Shown here: piece after piece, positions 44,525-51,855 of the stretch | Layout: every line of letters starts with the position of its first letter | Position numbering within the stretch: the stretch's first letter is position 1 | Origin: Bryobacterales bacterium | GTDB lineage: Bacteria > Acidobacteriota > Terriglobia > Bryobacterales > UBA6623 | DNA length: 64,000 nt | Direction: 5' to 3' | NCBI GenBank assembly: GCA_028819255.1 | Contig: JAPPMB010000037.1 | Location: 1 to 64,000, forward strand | Notes under the pieces: generated by a model | The model's database searches: none | What the model was told of the DNA's origin: nothing | What the model saw: the letters and a program-made list of their open reading frames with translations, nothing else | Position numbers and translations under genes: made by a program

Positions 44525-44857
44525 GTGGATCAGCGGCTGGCATGGCTCGGGGAGCGGTTGGCGCGGCTCGAAGGTCTGATCAAGAGTCCGGGACCGTTTC
44601 GCCCGGCAGATACGCGAGCAGCCGCGTCGACGGGTGCCAGACAGAATCTAGCGGCGCCGCTGGGGCTCGTAGAACTCCATCTGTGTCCGTTTTGCCCCAG
44701 CGCGTTCGAGGAGTTCCACCCGGACCGGATGGCCGGGCCGGGAGCCTCGCCGGGCCGCGCCCGTCGGGATCCGCTCCAGTCGGGCTGCCGGCGTCCGTAC
44801 GGGAATGAGGGCTCCGCCGGATGCTGCGAAGCAGGCTGCGGACGAGCCTCCGAGTAA
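44525..44857 (+). CDS. Hypothetical small protein upstream of the suf operon
   Basis: The frame of 110 residues opens with a heptad-like segment VDQRLAWLGERLARLEGLIK, which looks like a short coiled coil. A CPFC pair and many Pro/Gly/Arg residues follow, with a cysteine-rich end (CCEAGC). GTG 44525 has no convincing ribosome-binding site. A second frame overlaps it at 44476-44808. No family is recognised. It ends just before the suf promoter, so it is not part of that operon. It may be a degenerate remnant. Confidence 0.25.
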   Translation: MDQRLAWLGERLARLEGLIKSPGPFRPADTRAAASTGARQNLAAPLGLVELHLCPFCPSAFEEFHPDRMAGPGASPGRARRDPLQSGCRRPYGNEGSAGCCEAGCGRASE

Positions 44858-44859
44858 TG

Positions 44860-44881
44860 TATACTAATCAGTACAGATTAG
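44860..44881 (+). promoter_or_regulatory. suf promoter -10 box overlapped by an 18-bp palindromic operator
   Basis: TATACT (44860-44865) is a good -10 hexamer 65 bases upstream of sufB. Overlapping it, CTAATCAGTACAGATTAG (44864-44881) is an inverted repeat: CTAATC and GATTAG match perfectly around a nearly symmetric AGTACA. A repressor bound there would block the promoter. The Rrf2-family regulator encoded in the same operon is the obvious candidate, by analogy with IscR and SufR; this pairing is inference. Confidence 0.6.
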
Positions 44882-44930
44882 GCACCACCGTCCGGTGGCA
44901 CCGGCTTAGCCCGCCTTCTCTTTCCACACC

Positions 44931-46379
44931 ATGAGCAGTGCAGTCGACCACCTCGAAGGCCTCACGAGCCAGGACTACAAGTACGGCTTCGTCACCGAAA
45001 TCGACCAGGAGACACTGCCTCCGGGCCTGACCGAAGACACCGTTCGATTCATTTCCGCCAAGAAGGCGGAGCCGGACTGGCTGCTCGAGTGGCGCCTGAA
45101 GGCGTTCCGCCACTGGCGGGGCATGGACGAGCCGACCTGGCCCAACGTCAAGTATCCTCCCATCGACTACCAGGCGATCTCCTACTATGCCGCGCCCAAG
45201 AGCGCCGACGACCGTCCCAAGAGTCTCGACGAGGTTGATCCCGAACTGCTCGCCACCTACGAGAAGCTCGGCATTCCCCTCGAGGAGCGCGCCGCGCTGG
45301 CCGGCGTGGCCGTCGACGCCGTCTTCGACAGCGTCTCGGTGGCCACGACGTTCCGCGAGAAGCTGGCCGAAGCCGGCGTGATCTTCATGTCGATCTCCGA
45401 GGCGGTGCGCGAGCACCCCGGGCTCGTCCGCCAGTACCTAGGATCCGTGGTGCCCCCCTCGGACAATTTCTTTGCCGCGCTCAACTCGGCGGTCTTCTCG
45501 GACGGGTCCTTCGTGTTCATCCCCAAGGGCGTCACCTGCCCGATGGAACTCTCAACGTACTTCCGCATCAACGCGATGAACACGGGACAGTTCGAACGCA
45601 CCCTGATCGTGGCCGAGGAGGCCAGCCACGTCAGCTACCTTGAGGGCTGCACCGCGCCGATGCGGGACGAGAACCAGCTGCATGCCGCAGTGGTCGAGCT
45701 CGTCGCGCTGGACGACGCGCGCATTAAGTACTCCACCGTCCAGAACTGGTACCCCGGAGACAAGGACGGCAACGGCGGCATCTACAACTTTGTGACGAAG
45801 CGGGGGGCCTGCCGGGGACGCAACTCGAAGATCTCCTGGACCCAGGTGGAGACGGGCTCCGCCATCACCTGGAAATACCCCAGCTGCATTCTGCTCGGCG
45901 ACAATTCGGTCGGGGAGTTCTACTCCGTCGCGGTCACCAACAACCACCAGCAGGCCGACACGGGCACGAAGATGATCCACGTCGGCAGGAACACGACCTC
46001 GACCATCGTCTCAAAGGGCATTTCCGCCGGCGTCTCGAACAACTCCTACCGGGGCCTGGTGAAGATCCTGCCCAAGGCCGAGGGCGCGCGGAACTTCTCG
46101 CAGTGTGACTCGATGCTGATGGGCGACCGCTGTGGCGCGCACACCTTTCCCTACCTGGAGGTGCGCAACAAGTCGGCGCAGGTGGAGCACGAGGCGACGA
46201 CCTCCAAGATCGGCGAGGACCAGATCTTCTATCTCAACCAGCGCGGGATCGAGACCGAGGACGCGGTGTCGATGATCGTCAACGGTTTCTGCAAGGAAGT
46301 CTTCCGCGAGCTGCCGATGGAGTTCGCCGTTGAGGCGCAGAAGCTGCTGGGAGTGAGTCTCGAGGGAAGCGTCGGCTAG
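44931..46379 (+). CDS. sufB: Fe-S cluster assembly scaffold SufB
   Basis: The 482-residue SufB is the scaffold on which Fe-S clusters are built with SufC and SufD. Its beta-helix core contains the key cysteines in [19 protein letters not shown], matching E. coli C405 and C414 contexts, and [21 protein letters not shown]. The N-terminal part has [15 protein letters not shown] and [16 protein letters not shown]. The length is standard. It is the first gene of sufB-sufC-sufD-sufS-sufT-rrf2-mrp; its promoter carries a palindrome likely bound by the operon's own regulator. No ribosome-binding site is obvious before the ATG. Confidence 0.97.
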
Positions 46380-46410: not shown

Positions 46411-47181
46411 ATGCTGCACGTACGAAACCTGCACGCGGGAGTGGATGGCCAGGAGATCCTTCGGGGCGTGAACCTCGATGTGGAGCTCGGAAGCGTCCAC
46501 GCCATCATGGGCCCGAACGGCTCGGGCAAGAGCACGCTCGCGTCGGTGCTGGCCGGGCGGGACGGCTACGAGGTCACCGCCGGTTCGGTGACATACGCCA
46601 CCCAGGACCTGCTTGAGATGGATCCCGAGATCCGCGCGCGCAACGGGATCTTCCTCGCATTCCAGTACCCGGTGGAAATCCCGGGCGTGACGATGATGTA
46701 CTTCATGCGCGAGGCGGTGAACGCCGTCTACCGGCACCGCGGGCAAGAGGAGCTTTCGGCGGGCGACTTCCTGCGGCTGGCGAGAGCCAAGATCGGCCCG
46801 CTCGGCATCAGCCCCGACATGCTCAAGAGGGCCGTCAACGCGGGGTTTTCGGGCGGCGAGAAGAAGCGCAGCGAGATCTTCCAGATGAGCATGCTGGAGC
46901 CGACCCTGAGCATCCTTGACGAGACCGACTCCGGGCTGGACATTGACGCGCTCAAGGTGGTCTCCAGAGGAGTCAACTCCCTGCGGAGCCCCGCGCGCTC
47001 GTTTCTGGTGATCACGCACTACCAGCGTCTGCTCAACTACATCGTGCCTGACCACGTCCACGTGCTCTCCCAGGGCCGGATCGTTCGTTCCGGCGACAGG
47101 TCCCTGGCTCTCGAGCTTGAGAAGCACGGGTACGGCTGGATCGAGGAGCGCGCCGCCGAGAGGGTGGCGCTGGGAGCCTAG
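46411..47181 (+). CDS. sufC: Fe-S cluster assembly ATPase SufC
   Basis: The 256-residue SufC is an ABC-type ATPase that drives conformational change in the SufBC2D complex in the cytoplasm. The Walker A motif is GPNGSGKST, the Q-loop lies in FLAFQYPVEIPGV, and the ABC signature is FSGGEKKRSE. Walker B and its catalytic Glu lie in LSILDETDSGLDIDAL, and the H-loop in VITHYQRLL. It begins 31 bases after sufB and is followed two bases after its stop by the sufD GTG, so these genes are closely coupled. Confidence 0.97.
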   Translation: MLHVRNLHAGVDGQEILRGVNLDVELGSVHAIMGPNGSGKSTLASVLAGRDGYEVTAGSVTYATQDLLEMDPEIRARNGIFLAFQYPVEIPGVTMMYFMREAVNAVYRHRGQEELSAGDFLRLARAKIGPLGISPDMLKRAVNAGFSGGEKKRSEIFQMSMLEPTLSILDETDSGLDIDALKVVSRGVNSLRSPARSFLVITHYQRLLNYIVPDHVHVLSQGRIVRSGDRSLALELEKHGYGWIEERAAERVALGA

Positions 47182-47183
47182 CC

Positions 47184-48473
47184 GTGCCGGCAGCGACTGA
47201 GAGACGCAGCCTCTACCTTGAGCGCTTCACCGATGCCCTCCGCCGGGCGGACGGCGAACCAGGCTGGATGCGGCGGCGGCGGGAGCGCGCCATGGAGCGC
47301 TTCCTCACCCTCGGAGTGCCGACCCGCCGGGACGAGGAGTACAAGTACACGAACCTGACGGCCCTCAGGGACGCCAGGCTGTTGCTGGGCCCCGCGCGGA
47401 GCGGCGGCCTTCCCATCGACGCTCCGCACATCCCGGCGGGGCAGAGAGCCGTCGTGTTCGCGGGGGAGCCCGGTCAGGTCACTGTTCGGGGCGAACCCCC
47501 CCGGGGGGTCCGGGTGCGTCGCCTCAGCAAGGTGCTCAGGACCGATCCGCCCGGCCTGGAGACCCACCTTGCGGCCACCGCCCAGTTCAAGGACCATCCT
47601 CTCTGCGCCCTGAACACGGCGCTCTTCGCCGACGGCGTCGTGATCGAGTCGGAGCCTGGCGTGATCGCCGAAGAGCCCGTGCATGTCTCGTTCGGCGACG
47701 GTCTGGGCGCACGGCATCCGCGGGTGCTGATTCTGGCCCGGCGCAACTCGTCCGTCCGGGTCGTGGAGAGGCACTCGGGCGCAGGAGCCTTCTGGCGGAA
47801 CGCCGTCACCGAGATCGTGGCCGAACCGAACGCCCGTGTCGACCATTTCCGGGCGCAGCTCGATTCCCTAGACGCCTACCACACCGGCGTTGTGCAGGCG
47901 AGCCAGGAGCGGGACAGCTACGTCAGCTCCTTCTCGCTGAGCTTCGGCGCCGCGCTCGCCCGCAACGACATCGGCACCCGCCTCGTCGGGTCCGGGTGCG
48001 AATGCTCCCTGGACGGGCTGTTCGCGGTGCGGGGCAGCCAGCACGTCGACCACCACACGGCCATCGACCACGCAATGCCGCACTGCAACTCCCACCAGCT
48101 CTACAAGGGCGTGCTCGACGACCGGGCGCGAGGCGTGTTCAACGGCAAGATCTTCGTACGCCGGGACGCGCAGAAGACCGACGCGGTCCAGAGCAACAAG
48201 AACCTCCTGCTGTCCGACGAAGCCGAGGTCAACACCAAGCCGCAGCTGGAGATCGACGCGAACGATGTCCGCTGCACGCACGGGGCGACCATCGGGCAGC
48301 TGGACGCTACGGCGGCGTTCTACCTCCGCTCGCGCGGCATCAGCGCTGCGCACGCGCGCAACATCCTCACCTACGCGTTCGCCGCGGACGCGCTGGAACG
48401 GATCCGGGACGCTTCGCTGAAGGAGCACTTCGAGAGTGTGTTGCTCTCGCGCTTCGCCCGGGAGGAGCACTGA
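47184..48473 (+). CDS. sufD: Fe-S cluster assembly protein SufD
   Basis: The 429-residue SufD pairs with SufB in the scaffold. The N-terminal helical part has TRRDEEYKYTNLTAL. The beta-helix core ends in FNGKIFVRRDAQKTDAVQSN, LLLSDEAEVNTKPQLEI and CTHGATIGQLD, which contains the conserved His used at the SufB-SufD interface. The start is GTG 47184, two bases after the sufC stop, with GGGAG upstream. The length is normal. sufS starts 25 bases after its stop. Confidence 0.95.
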   Translation: MPAATERRSLYLERFTDALRRADGEPGWMRRRRERAMERFLTLGVPTRRDEEYKYTNLTALRDARLLLGPARSGGLPIDAPHIPAGQRAVVFAGEPGQVTVRGEPPRGVRVRRLSKVLRTDPPGLETHLAATAQFKDHPLCALNTALFADGVVIESEPGVIAEEPVHVSFGDGLGARHPRVLILARRNSSVRVVERHSGAGAFWRNAVTEIVAEPNARVDHFRAQLDSLDAYHTGVVQASQERDSYVSSFSLSFGAALARNDIGTRLVGSGCECSLDGLFAVRGSQHVDHHTAIDHAMPHCNSHQLYKGVLDDRARGVFNGKIFVRRDAQKTDAVQSNKNLLLSDEAEVNTKPQLEIDANDVRCTHGATIGQLDATAAFYLRSRGISAAHARNILTYAFAADALERIRDASLKEHFESVLLSRFAREEH

Positions 48474-48498
48474 TGCGGCGGCCACGGGACGCCCGACA

Positions 48499-49746
48499 AT
48501 GACGGCGACGGCTGCGGCTACCCTGCCGGCGCTCGATGCGCAGGCCCTGCGCGCGGACTTTCCCGCCCTCCAGCAGACCGTGCACGGCCGCCCGCTCGTC
48601 TACCTCGACAGCGCGGCGTCCTCGCAGACCCCGAGAAGGGTTCTCGACGCGCTGCTCGGCTACTACGAGAACGACCGTTCCAACGTGCATCGCGGAGTGC
48701 ACGAGCTCAGCCAGCGCGCCACCGACAAGTACGAATCGGCCCGCATCCGCCTGCAGCGGTTCCTCAACGCCTCCGGACCCGAGGAGATTGTCTGGACGCG
48801 CGGGACGACGGAGAGCATCAACCTTGTCGCGGCGACCTGGGGCCGGGCCAACGTCCGGGCGGGAGACGACGTCATCATCTCCGCGATGGAGCACCACTCG
48901 AACATCGTCCCCTGGCAGGTGCTCTGCCAGGAGAAGGGGGCGAACCTCCGGATCATCCCGATGAGCCATGCCGGCGAACTGCGCCTTTCCGAGCTGGACC
49001 GCCTGCTTTCGGGCCGTCCGCGCATCGTGGCGGTCACGCAGGTGTCGAACGCGCTCGGCACGGTCAACCCGGTCCGGGAGATCGCCGAGCGGGCGCATGC
49101 CGCCGGCGCGGTCTGCCTCGTCGACGGCGCCCAGGCAGCACCCCATCTGCAGGTTGATGTCAGGGCGCTCGGCTGTGACTTCTTCGCTCTGTCGGGACAC
49201 AAGATGTGCGGCCCGACCGGCATCGGCGCCCTGTACGCCCGGCGGGCGCTGCTCGAGGAGATGCCGCCGTACCAGACCGGCGGCGACATGATCTCGTCCG
49301 TCCGCTTCGAGAAGACCGTCTACAACGAGCTTCCCTACCGCTTCGAGGCCGGGACGCCCATGATCGCCGGCGCGATCGCCATGGGCGCCGCAGTCGACTA
49401 CCTGGAGAATGTCGGCATGGAGCGGATCGCCGCGCACGAGGCTGACCTGCTGCACCACGGCACGGAGAGACTGTGCGCAATCCGGGGCCTGCGGCTGATA
49501 GGCACGGCTCGCGACAAGGCCAGCGTGCTCTCCTTCGAGGTCGAGGGCGCCCACCCGGCCGACCTCGGGACCCTCCTAGACCGGCAGGGGATCGCCCTGC
49601 GCGTGGGCCACCACTGCGCCGAGCCGGTCATGCGATTCTACGGCGTGGCTGCGACGACGCGCGCGTCCCTTGCGTTCTACAACACGCGGTCCGACCTCGA
49701 CGCCCTGGGAGCCGCGATCGAGACCGCGAAGGAGATCCTGGCCTGA
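48499..49746 (+). CDS. sufS: Cysteine desulfurase SufS
   Basis: The 415-residue PLP enzyme (group II, SufS/CsdA type) removes sulfur from cysteine as a persulfide for cluster building. The PLP lysine lies in LSGHKMCGPTGIGALY, and the persulfide-forming cysteine in RVGHHCAEPVMRFY. VYLDSAASSQTPR, NVHRGVHELSQRAT and AMEHHSNIVPWQ are further family motifs. ATG 48499 gives the usual N-terminus; upstream codons in frame lie at the end of sufD. The stop and the sufT ATG share one base (TGATG). No SufE or SufU partner gene is seen in the operon. Confidence 0.96.
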   Translation: MTATAAATLPALDAQALRADFPALQQTVHGRPLVYLDSAASSQTPRRVLDALLGYYENDRSNVHRGVHELSQRATDKYESARIRLQRFLNASGPEEIVWTRGTTESINLVAATWGRANVRAGDDVIISAMEHHSNIVPWQVLCQEKGANLRIIPMSHAGELRLSELDRLLSGRPRIVAVTQVSNALGTVNPVREIAERAHAAGAVCLVDGAQAAPHLQVDVRALGCDFFALSGHKMCGPTGIGALYARRALLEEMPPYQTGGDMISSVRFEKTVYNELPYRFEAGTPMIAGAIAMGAAVDYLENVGMERIAAHEADLLHHGTERLCAIRGLRLIGTARDKASVLSFEVEGAHPADLGTLLDRQGIALRVGHHCAEPVMRFYGVAATTRASLAFYNTRSDLDALGAAIETAKEILA

Positions 49747-50276
49747 TGAGCTTGCTGACCCTCGGACTGAACGACAGGCCCAAGGCCGCGGAGACCGCCG
49801 ACACCGCCAAGGCCGGCGACAGGACGAAAGCACCGTCCTCGGGCATGAACACCTCGGCCCTCGGGAAGGCGCCGACCTACAGCGACTTCGTACCGAGCAT
49901 GCACTCGAACATGACGATGACCTCGCCGCTACCGCCCGTGGAGCCGGAATACGCCCCGGACGCGACGTTGGAGGAGAAGGTCGTCGCGGTGCTCAAGACG
50001 TGCTTCGACCCTGAAATCCCTGTCGACATCTACCAGCTCGGCCTGATCTACAAGGTGACCGCTCCGCGTTCGGCGGAGCAGCCGGACATGGTCAAGGTCC
50101 TGATGACCCTCACGGCGCCGAACTGCCCGGCCGCCCAGACGCTTCCAGCGGAAGCCAAGTACAAGATCGAGCGGCTCGCGGAGGTCCGGGACGCCGAGAT
50201 CGAGATCACGTTCGACCCGCCCTGGACGCCGGAGAAGATGAGCGAGGAGGCCAGGCTCGTCCTGAACCTGATCTGA
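49746..50276 (+). CDS. sufT: SufT-like Fe-S maturation protein (DUF59/MIP18 domain) with long N-terminal arm
   Basis: The 176-residue product has a DUF59/MIP18 domain of about 100 residues (LEEKVVAVLKTCFDPEIPVDIYQ, LTAPNCPAAQTLPAE, ITFDPPWTPEKMSEEARL). SufT proteins help mature certain Fe-S proteins in the cytoplasm. The Cys in NCPAAQ is conserved in the family. The first 75 residues are Ala/Lys/Met-rich and look disordered, longer than in typical SufT. Translation is coupled to sufS by the shared TGATG. The Rrf2 gene starts nine bases after its stop. Confidence 0.88.
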   Translation: MSLLTLGLNDRPKAAETADTAKAGDRTKAPSSGMNTSALGKAPTYSDFVPSMHSNMTMTSPLPPVEPEYAPDATLEEKVVAVLKTCFDPEIPVDIYQLGLIYKVTAPRSAEQPDMVKVLMTLTAPNCPAAQTLPAEAKYKIERLAEVRDAEIEITFDPPWTPEKMSEEARLVLNLI

Positions 50277-50285
50277 GGAAATGAC

Positions 50286-50783
50286 ATGCAACTGAGCTCG
50301 CAGGAAGAATTCGGACTGCGCTGCCTGATGCGCCTGGCCCAGGCGGGGCCCGGCGAACTCCAGAGCGTTCACGAGATCTCGCAGGCGGAGGGCATTTCGA
50401 TGCCGCACGCGGCCAAGCTGATGCGGATCCTTCGGGAGGGCGGACTGGTGGCAAGCGAGCGCGGACAGGCCGGCGGGTACCACCTGACCCGGTCCGCGGA
50501 GACCATCAGCGTCAAGGAAGCCATCCAGGTGCTGGGAGGCGAATTCTACGGCACGGAGTTCTGCGGCCGGTTTTCGGGACACGAGGACTCGTGCACGCGC
50601 TCGACGGACTGCTCGATCCGCTCGCTGTGGAGAGCGGTCCAGGGGGTCGTGGACCAGCTGCTGAGCCGGACGAGCCTGAGCGACCTGATGTGCAGGGAGC
50701 ACGAGATGGACCGGTTCGTCGGCGAACTGGTGGTGCTGGCAGGGGTCATGGGCCCTGCGCCGGCGGGAGCGAATCATGGCTGA
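50286..50783 (+). CDS. Rrf2-family transcriptional regulator (SufR/IscR-like)
   Basis: The 165-residue Rrf2-family winged-helix regulator begins MQLSSQEEFGLRCLMRLAQ. The recognition-helix region is SMPHAAKLMRILREGGLV and the wing RGQAGGYHLTR. Three cysteines likely bind an Fe-S cluster: FCGRFSGHEDSC and DC, spaced C-x9-C-x5-C, instead of the C-x5-C-x5-C of IscR. It therefore probably senses cluster status and represses the operon through the palindrome at 44864-44881. GAGGAA immediately precedes the start. The last eight bases overlap mrp. Confidence 0.9.
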   Translation: MQLSSQEEFGLRCLMRLAQAGPGELQSVHEISQAEGISMPHAAKLMRILREGGLVASERGQAGGYHLTRSAETISVKEAIQVLGGEFYGTEFCGRFSGHEDSCTRSTDCSIRSLWRAVQGVVDQLLSRTSLSDLMCREHEMDRFVGELVVLAGVMGPAPAGANHG

Positions 50784-51855
50784 TCTGGAACGGATTCAAG
50801 CGGCCCTGCGCTTCGTGATCCATCCCGCCTACGGAAGGAGCATCGTCGACCTGGGCCTCGTGCAGGACCTCGCCGCGGACGAGGGGCTCGTGCGGTTCAA
50901 GCTCCAGAACACCGTCCCCCGCTCCGGCCGCGCAGAGTCCGTACTTCGGGCGGCCGTCGAGGCGGCGCAGGCAGCCGCGCCGGACGCGCGGGTGGAGGCC
51001 GACCTCACGGCCAGCGCGAGAGCGAACCCCGCCGGAGCGTCCGGCAAGGGCTCGATCGAGGGCGTCTCCAACATCATTCCGGTCGCGTCCGGCAAGGGCG
51101 GCGTCGGGAAGTCCACGGTCTCGGCCAATCTGGCGCTCGCCCTTGCCGCAACGGGCGCCAAGGTGGGTCTCATGGACGCGGACGTCTACGGTCCGAGCAT
51201 CCCCCACATCATGGGAGCGCGGGAGGGCCCCAGGCACGGCGGCCGCGGCATCATCCCCGTGGAGACCCACGGAATCCCGATCATCTCGACGGGGTTCTTC
51301 GTCCGCAAGGACCAGGCCGTCGTCTGGCGGGGACCGATGCTGGCCAAGATGGTCGAGCAACTCACCAACCAAGTGGAATGGGGCCTGCTCGACTACCTGG
51401 TGATCGACCTGCCTCCGGGCACCGGAGATGTGCAGCTGAGCCTCTGCCAGCGCCTGGCGCTCACGGGAGCGGTTGTCGTGACGACGCCCCAGCCCATGGC
51501 GGTCAACGTGGCGGAGAAGGCGATCATCATGTTCCAGCAGCTCAAGACCCCCATCCTGGGAGTGGTCGAGAACATGAGCTACTTCGAGTCAAGGGCGACG
51601 GGCGAACGGGAGTACATCTTCGGATCGGGCGGGGCCGACCGGATCGCCCAGCAGTGGAGCATTCCGGTGCTGGGACGGGTGCCTCTCGCGACGACCGTGC
51701 GGGAGACCTCCGACGAGGGGACGCCGATCGTCCTCGCGGAACCGGACGCGCCGGCGTCGAGGGCGTTTCTCGAAGTCGGCAAGCAGCTCGCCGCCGAGGT
51801 GGCCATGCACAATCTCAAGGCCGAGGGCGAGAGCATGGTCAAGATCACCTTCTGA
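50776..51855 (+). CDS. Mrp/ApbC-type Fe-S carrier ATPase with N-terminal DUF59
   Basis: The 359-residue P-loop protein has an N-terminal DUF59/MIP18 domain (about 1-90) followed by a Mrp/NBP35 ATPase. The deviant Walker A is ASGKGGVGKST; LMDADVYGPSIPH and VIDLPPGTGDVQL follow. Mrp proteins bind a bridging 4Fe-4S cluster at a CxxC near the end and pass it to targets. Here the equivalent site reads NMSYFESRATGE...FGSGG, with no CxxC, as in some other bacterial Mrp proteins. Cluster binding, if any, must use other residues. GGGAG precedes the ATG, which lies inside the Rrf2 gene end. It is the last gene of the operon. Confidence 0.92.
   Translation: MADLERIQAALRFVIHPAYGRSIVDLGLVQDLAADEGLVRFKLQNTVPRSGRAESVLRAAVEAAQAAAPDARVEADLTASARANPAGASGKGSIEGVSNIIPVASGKGGVGKSTVSANLALALAATGAKVGLMDADVYGPSIPHIMGAREGPRHGGRGIIPVETHGIPIISTGFFVRKDQAVVWRGPMLAKMVEQLTNQVEWGLLDYLVIDLPPGTGDVQLSLCQRLALTGAVVVTTPQPMAVNVAEKAIIMFQQLKTPILGVVENMSYFESRATGEREYIFGSGGADRIAQQWSIPVLGRVPLATTVRETSDEGTPIVLAEPDAPASRAFLEVGKQLAAEVAMHNLKAEGESMVKITF

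Follow-up and report, generated by a model that had tools for sequence, protein, structure and literature searches.

A conserved 24-bp dyad in the suf promoter of a Bryobacterales bacterium, a probable operator of the operon's own Rrf2-family regulator

The suf operon of the Bryobacterales bacterium analysed in this work is preceded by a 24-bp dyad composed of two 9-bp arms separated by 6 bp. It is probably the operator of the Rrf2-family regulator encoded in the same operon, the Fe-S-loaded dimer of which would cover the promoter and repress suf. The dyad lies over the promoter, is conserved ahead of sufB among relatives and accompanies, at the head of suf operons, those Rrf2 proteins whose three cysteines are spaced as C-x9-C-x5-C.

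The window, by which we mean the whole 64-kb stretch of DNA analysed, is part of a genome of 6.7 Mb. The genes are arranged in the order sufBCDST-rrf2-apbC on the 3′ side of the operator-like site, and 51 bp separate the end of the dyad from sufB (Table 1). The putative -10 hexamer that overlaps the left arm of the dyad was not called by a simple promoter scan. A few bases 3′ of the operator lies a stem-loop, the stem of which (CCAC...GTGG) is retained in most members of the genus, with the loop and some of the pairs altered.

Table 1 Features of the suf locus and its promoter region in the window
Feature	Position	Strand	Basis and remarks
Putative operator dyad, 24 bp, AATGTATAC-TAATCA-GTACAGATT (9-6-9)	44856..44879	+	conserved before sufB; profile E = 0.0006 in the window
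Left half-site AATGTATAC	44856..44864	+	-10 region in the window; AATCTTGAC / -35 box in most relatives
Right half-site GTACAGATT	44871..44879	+	best conserved arm
Putative -10 hexamer TATACT	44860..44865	+	sequence
18-bp palindrome CTAATCAGTACAGATTAG (CTAATC-AGTACA-GATTAG)	44864..44881	.	left arm in the variable spacer of the dyad
Stem-loop CCACC-GTCC-GGTGG	44885..44898	+	5′ end of the presumed suf leader RNA; retained within the genus
sufB	44931..46379	+	NCBIfam SufB, 919.7 bits
sufC	46411..47181	+	NCBIfam SufC
sufD	47184..48473	+	NCBIfam SufD
sufS, cysteine desulfurase	48436..49746	+	NCBIfam SufS; true start possibly further in
sufT-like, SUF-associated protein	49758..50276	+	NCBIfam SUF_assoc / SufT, under the curated cut-off
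rrf2, Rrf2-family regulator (C93-x9-C103-x5-C109, Glu8, Arg12); probable operator ligand	50286..50783	+	NCBIfam rrf2_super above cut-off, alignments, predicted fold
apbC/mrp, Fe-S carrier ATPase; final gene in the operon	50776..51855	+	

A different figure in the same promoter, the 18-bp palindrome, had been proposed in the first-pass annotation as the target of the Rrf2 regulator and placed at 44860-44881. Its letters are present, but the true span begins at 44864, the start at 44860 taking in the TATA of the -10 box. The overlap with the -10-like TATACT box ahead of the operon had been seen correctly. This overlap, and the occurrence of CTAATC-N6-GATTAG as a single mismatch-free copy in the 6.7-Mb genome, would speak for the palindrome as read being the operator. 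However, it has 8 of 9 pairs matched, a quality reached or exceeded by 13 18-mers in the 64-kb window, which also holds 32 perfect 6-N6-6 inverted repeats; a pattern search of 60 relatives, including ten from the same genus, did not detect CTAATC-N6-GATTAG. When the near relatives were aligned, the arms of the palindrome paired at 1 to 5 of 6 positions and those of the overlapping 24-bp dyad at 7 or 8 of 9, the two centres (44872/44873 and 44867/44868, respectively) being 5 bp apart. Since the left arm of the palindrome falls in the freely varying spacer of the dyad, the palindrome is, judged by sequence comparison, a chance figure on top of the real 24-bp site. We rejected it as a candidate operator, a role that is now scarcely credible, and its assignment as the Rrf2 target had to be abandoned with its absence from the related suf promoters.

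Comparison of promoters supports the 24-bp dyad as an operator-like element that has been conserved in the suf promoter. The promoters of 22 relatives from the genus, family and order were read, and nearly all of them carry the dyad upstream of sufB, the family consensus being AATCTNKAC-N6-GTAYAGATT; L027 is exceptional in that AATCTTGACT alone was recognized, with no distinct right arm. The copy in the window matches at only 7 of 9 pairs. Members of the genus have the form AATGTATAC-N6-GTAYAGATT over the presumed -10, and elsewhere in the family and order the form is mostly AATCTTGAC-N6-GTAYAGATT, in which TTGAC serves both as left arm and as -35 box. Several relatives possess two dyads 43 bp apart, and the arms of the downstream second copy are perfect in L021 (AATCTGTAC-N6-GTACAGATT) and near-perfect in L020 (AATCTATAC-N6-GTACAGATT); because these downstream copies are free of promoter double duty, AATCTRTAC may be regarded as the ideal half-site. 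A sequence-only profile built from 30 sites picked out the window copy as the one good match in the genome, and neither this profile nor a pattern search allowing up to three mismatches gave a second strong site in the genome that would point to a larger regulon. The exact 22-mer was not found in viral contigs.

The occurrence of the dyad was then compared with the type of Rrf2 protein encoded in the operon. Among 80 named loci found via the regulator, those containing a sufB start have the dyad upstream of sufB, and related rrf2 genes without sufB have no site of comparable strength. The profile used for the test was trained on sites of the window's order only, and the set outside the training comprised the remaining named loci together with genomes sampled across the phylum at one or a few per family, 60 being fetched for the test. 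The dyad stands at the head of 33 of the 37 suf operons with a C-x9-C-x5-C Rrf2 and of 0 of the 34 whose Rrf2 has another spacing (Fisher p = 4.6e-16, a value that overstates independence, since the two operator types split almost completely into two clades of the Rrf2 tree and few evolutionary changes underlie the association). The place marked in the first-pass annotation thus retains its standing as a probable target of the operon's Rrf2 protein, a site that goes with the C-x9-C-x5-C subfamily. Four C-x9-C-x5-C operons fell under the profile threshold, and two of these (L204 and L222) have N6 dyads with other arms. The site tracks the head of the operon, being located before sufB when rrf2 is distal and before rrf2 when rrf2 comes first; an example of the latter arrangement is L209, in which the site is perfectly symmetrical (AATCTTGAC-TTTTTT-GTCAAGATT).

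When the spacer length was left free in the scan, N6 was obtained in 12/12 strong dyads of the C-x9-C-x5-C class and N7 in 14.5/17 of the other Rrf2 class, the latter of the type AAACAGGAC-N7-GTCCTGTTT; most suf operons with the other Rrf2 proteins have a GGAC-N7-GTCC dyad of 25 bp. In the phylum to which L135, an Ignavibacteriaceae genome, belongs, 345 genomes were searched blindly with the pattern; of the 14 sites returned, 10 lay immediately upstream of sufB, and a C-x9-C-x5-C Rrf2 was encoded in all nine newly fetched operons with a site at sufB, as well as in L135. The dyad also precedes sufB in one Latescibacterota and one Gemmatimonadota genome.

The regulator belongs to the Rrf2 family (TIGR00738, 97.3 bits with a cut-off of 73.3). 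Its nearest named sequence relatives belong to genomes of Bryobacterales and other Acidobacteriota, which makes an acidobacterial origin of the window very probable. Its solved relatives by sequence include the Fe-S Rrf2 regulators IscR, RsrR and NsrR, and its predicted winged-helix fold matches the PDB Rrf2 proteins CymR, IscR, RsrR and NsrR (Foldseek), with a model confidence that is moderate to low around the cysteines (block pLDDT 54-59). It scores below the curated cut-offs of the NCBIfam equivalogs IscR (62.7 bits, 207.55 needed) and NsrR (48 bits, 182 needed). The same holds for TIGR02944, the Xanthomonas-type SUF regulator (74 bits, 110.65 needed), which is the best specific NCBIfam model and likewise neighbours suf genes. 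The cysteines C93, C103 and C109 are present as the first-pass annotation had read them, but their spacing, described there as unusual, is not unique, since RisR of M. xanthus has C92/C102/C108 (PMC9973013); the cysteines of Caulobacter IscR are C95/C105/C112 (PMC11475020). Glu7, Glu8, Arg12, Lys44, Gly98 and the three cysteines are invariant in 54/54 members of the class.

NsrR of S. coelicolor uses Asp8 of the opposite subunit, a residue linked to Arg12, as the fourth ligand of its cluster (PMC5411485). Glu8 and Arg12 of the window protein occupy the matching positions, an arrangement that points to carboxylate ligation of a [4Fe-4S] cluster; by this analogy the regulator probably carries [4Fe-4S] held by Cys93, Cys103, Cys109 and Glu8 of the partner subunit. 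NsrR also has three cysteines, and its holo-protein binds a dyad, but it is an NO sensor with C93/C99/C105 (x5, x5) and a 23-bp operator with a 7-bp centre (PMC9338935, PMC5411485).

E. coli IscR resembles the present regulator in the Rrf2 fold, the three cysteines, the autoregulation of an Fe-S operon, predicted in the present case, and a site that covers the promoter. It differs in having C92/C98/C104 (x5, x5) plus His107 and a [2Fe-2S] cluster, and its recognition residues Ser40/Glu43/Gln44 correspond to Pro40/Ala43/Lys44 in the window protein. The IscR type 1 consensus is ATASYYGACTRWWWYAGTCRRSTAT, a 25-bp N7 dyad, to which the 24-bp N6 dyad described here does not conform. RisR of M. xanthus is assigned to the Rrf2 subgroup IS6, which includes Acidobacteria; it binds an Fe-S cluster, probably [4Fe-4S] by spectrum, and in the holo-form occupies the -35/-10 region and thereby represses both isc and suf, its published site being the imperfect palindrome T(t/g)GAC-N7-GTCC(t/a) (PMC9973013). 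Common to both systems are the C-x9-C-x5-C spacing, the control of isc/suf, which is predicted for the present regulator, an imperfect palindrome over -35/-10, the conserved Arg59 and GxxGGxxL wing, and the lack of conservation of the E. coli IscR residues Ser40/Glu43/Gln44. RisR controls isc too, whereas the genome studied here has one site, at suf. Given the 7-bp spacer and the GTCC of the RisR site, the operator predicted here would be related to that of RisR and not the same: the spacer of 6 bp in all 12 strong dyads makes it 1 bp shorter between the arms, and the right arm is GTAYAGATT. The earlier suggestion of a distinct Rrf2 operator unlike IscR type 1 agrees with this computational comparison, in which the dyad differs from the published IscR and RisR sites. 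Searches of the open-access literature with the half-site motif returned only unrelated papers, an earlier description elsewhere being possible, and those for an IscR/Rrf2 regulon of Acidobacteria returned nothing relevant.

From RisR, IscR and NsrR we infer the binding, the cluster type and the direction of control. When clusters are plentiful, the holo-dimer would occupy the 24-bp dyad (half-site AATCTRTAC, 6-bp spacer) and hide a core promoter hexamer, the -10 here and the -35 in most relatives, which would keep sufBCDST-rrf2-apbC repressed. Under iron limitation or oxidative stress the cluster would be lost and the protein would leave the DNA, so that the suf operon and its regulator would be induced together. 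The opposite direction of control would apply if the dyad were an activator site, at which apo- or holo-Rrf2 turns suf on in the manner of apo-IscR acting on the suf promoter of E. coli. The E. coli protein activates suf through a type 2 site (PMC12594620), and in the window no good -35 hexamer is present 17 bp upstream of the putative -10. Activation is nevertheless unlikely, given that the dyad is placed on the -35 or -10 hexamer itself, which is a position for repression, and that RisR, a tested protein of the same cysteine spacing, represses as the holo-form (PMC9973013).

Repression by the operon's own Rrf2 has also to be set against the possibility that the dyad is bound by some other regulator co-occurring with suf, e.g. 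of the Fur type or a second Rrf2, and that the suf-borne Rrf2 acts elsewhere. Three loci (L178, L191 and L214) have the site and no Rrf2 in the stretch fetched, and in the phylum of L135 two of the sites are followed by a sigma factor gene, the few kb fetched there containing no Rrf2. We regard such a regulator as improbable in view of the pairing of the site with the Rrf2 subtype (33/37 against 0/34) and of the way the site moves with gene order; moreover, the only other clear Rrf2 of the genome is devoid of the three cysteines and lies before an apparent cysteine synthase gene. Conservation of the core promoter alone (-35 TTGAC, -10 TATACT), with no operator, would account for the coincidence of the left half with a promoter hexamer (-35 in most relatives, -10 in this genus), yet a promoter needs neither the right arm GTAYAGATT at a fixed 6 bp nor a dyad, and suf promoters with other Rrf2 types have no such dyad. 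A plain core promoter, to which we attach very little probability, was rejected because the right arm is fixed and because tandem second copies occur in L020 and L021, where no -35 is needed.

On a wider scale, the balance tilts slightly towards the C-x9-C-x5-C clade associated with sufBCDS, which ranges over Acidobacteriota, Ignavibacteria and their relatives, Gemmatimonadota and Latescibacterota, having a distinct class of Rrf2 operator, an even-centred 24-bp 9-N6-9 dyad as against the odd-centred 25-bp GGAC-N7-GTCC dyad of the other suf-borne Rrf2 proteins in the phylum. The cysteine loop, four residues longer here than in NsrR or IscR and containing the invariant Gly98, may set a different spacing of the recognition helices. 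The analysis provides a predicted operator/regulator pair for Fe-S cluster assembly in phyla for which no tested pair was found in the literature searched, and a sharp, checkable rule by which the cysteine spacing of a suf-borne Rrf2 predicts which dyad the promoter carries, 24-bp N6 or 25-bp N7. With a difference of a single base pair between the two classes, the readout of half-site spacing by Rrf2 dimers becomes directly testable.

Several further observations concern related regulators and sites. The second Rrf2 gene of the genome (L160, 1492-1923; G000:C77), without the three cysteines, is positioned before the apparent cysteine synthase gene as that of a CymR-like regulator might be. Members of the order without sufBCD (L053-L063) keep a close orthologue of the regulator (about 48-59% identical) with the same cysteines outside suf operons, and several of them share a different conserved upstream stretch, CATCTTGACGTACAATG. 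At twelve loci (L167, L168, L170, L181, L183, L186, L187, L189, L190, L193, L197 and L224) rrf2 is the first gene, encodes a protein with C-x6/7/10-C-x5-C and is preceded by a dyad close to AAATAGGAC-N7-GTCCTATTT, similar to the GGAC-N7-GTCC core published for RisR. In L074 a second C-x9-C-x5-C Rrf2 gene (817-1350) is found with iscS, divergent from sufB and with an N6 dyad between them, and the same genome has a further C-x9-C-x5-C rrf2 downstream in the same suf operon (L173). Sites are also met before other genes: in one genus of the phylum (L077, L078 and L165, sites at about 1501, 1501 and 598, respectively) an N6 dyad, e.g. AATCTTTACTTTTTTGTATAGATT, precedes a small rubredoxin-like gene, and in two genomes (L241/L252 and L242/L253) AATCTTGAC-N6-GTAYAGATT lies before the RNA polymerase sigma factor gene already mentioned.
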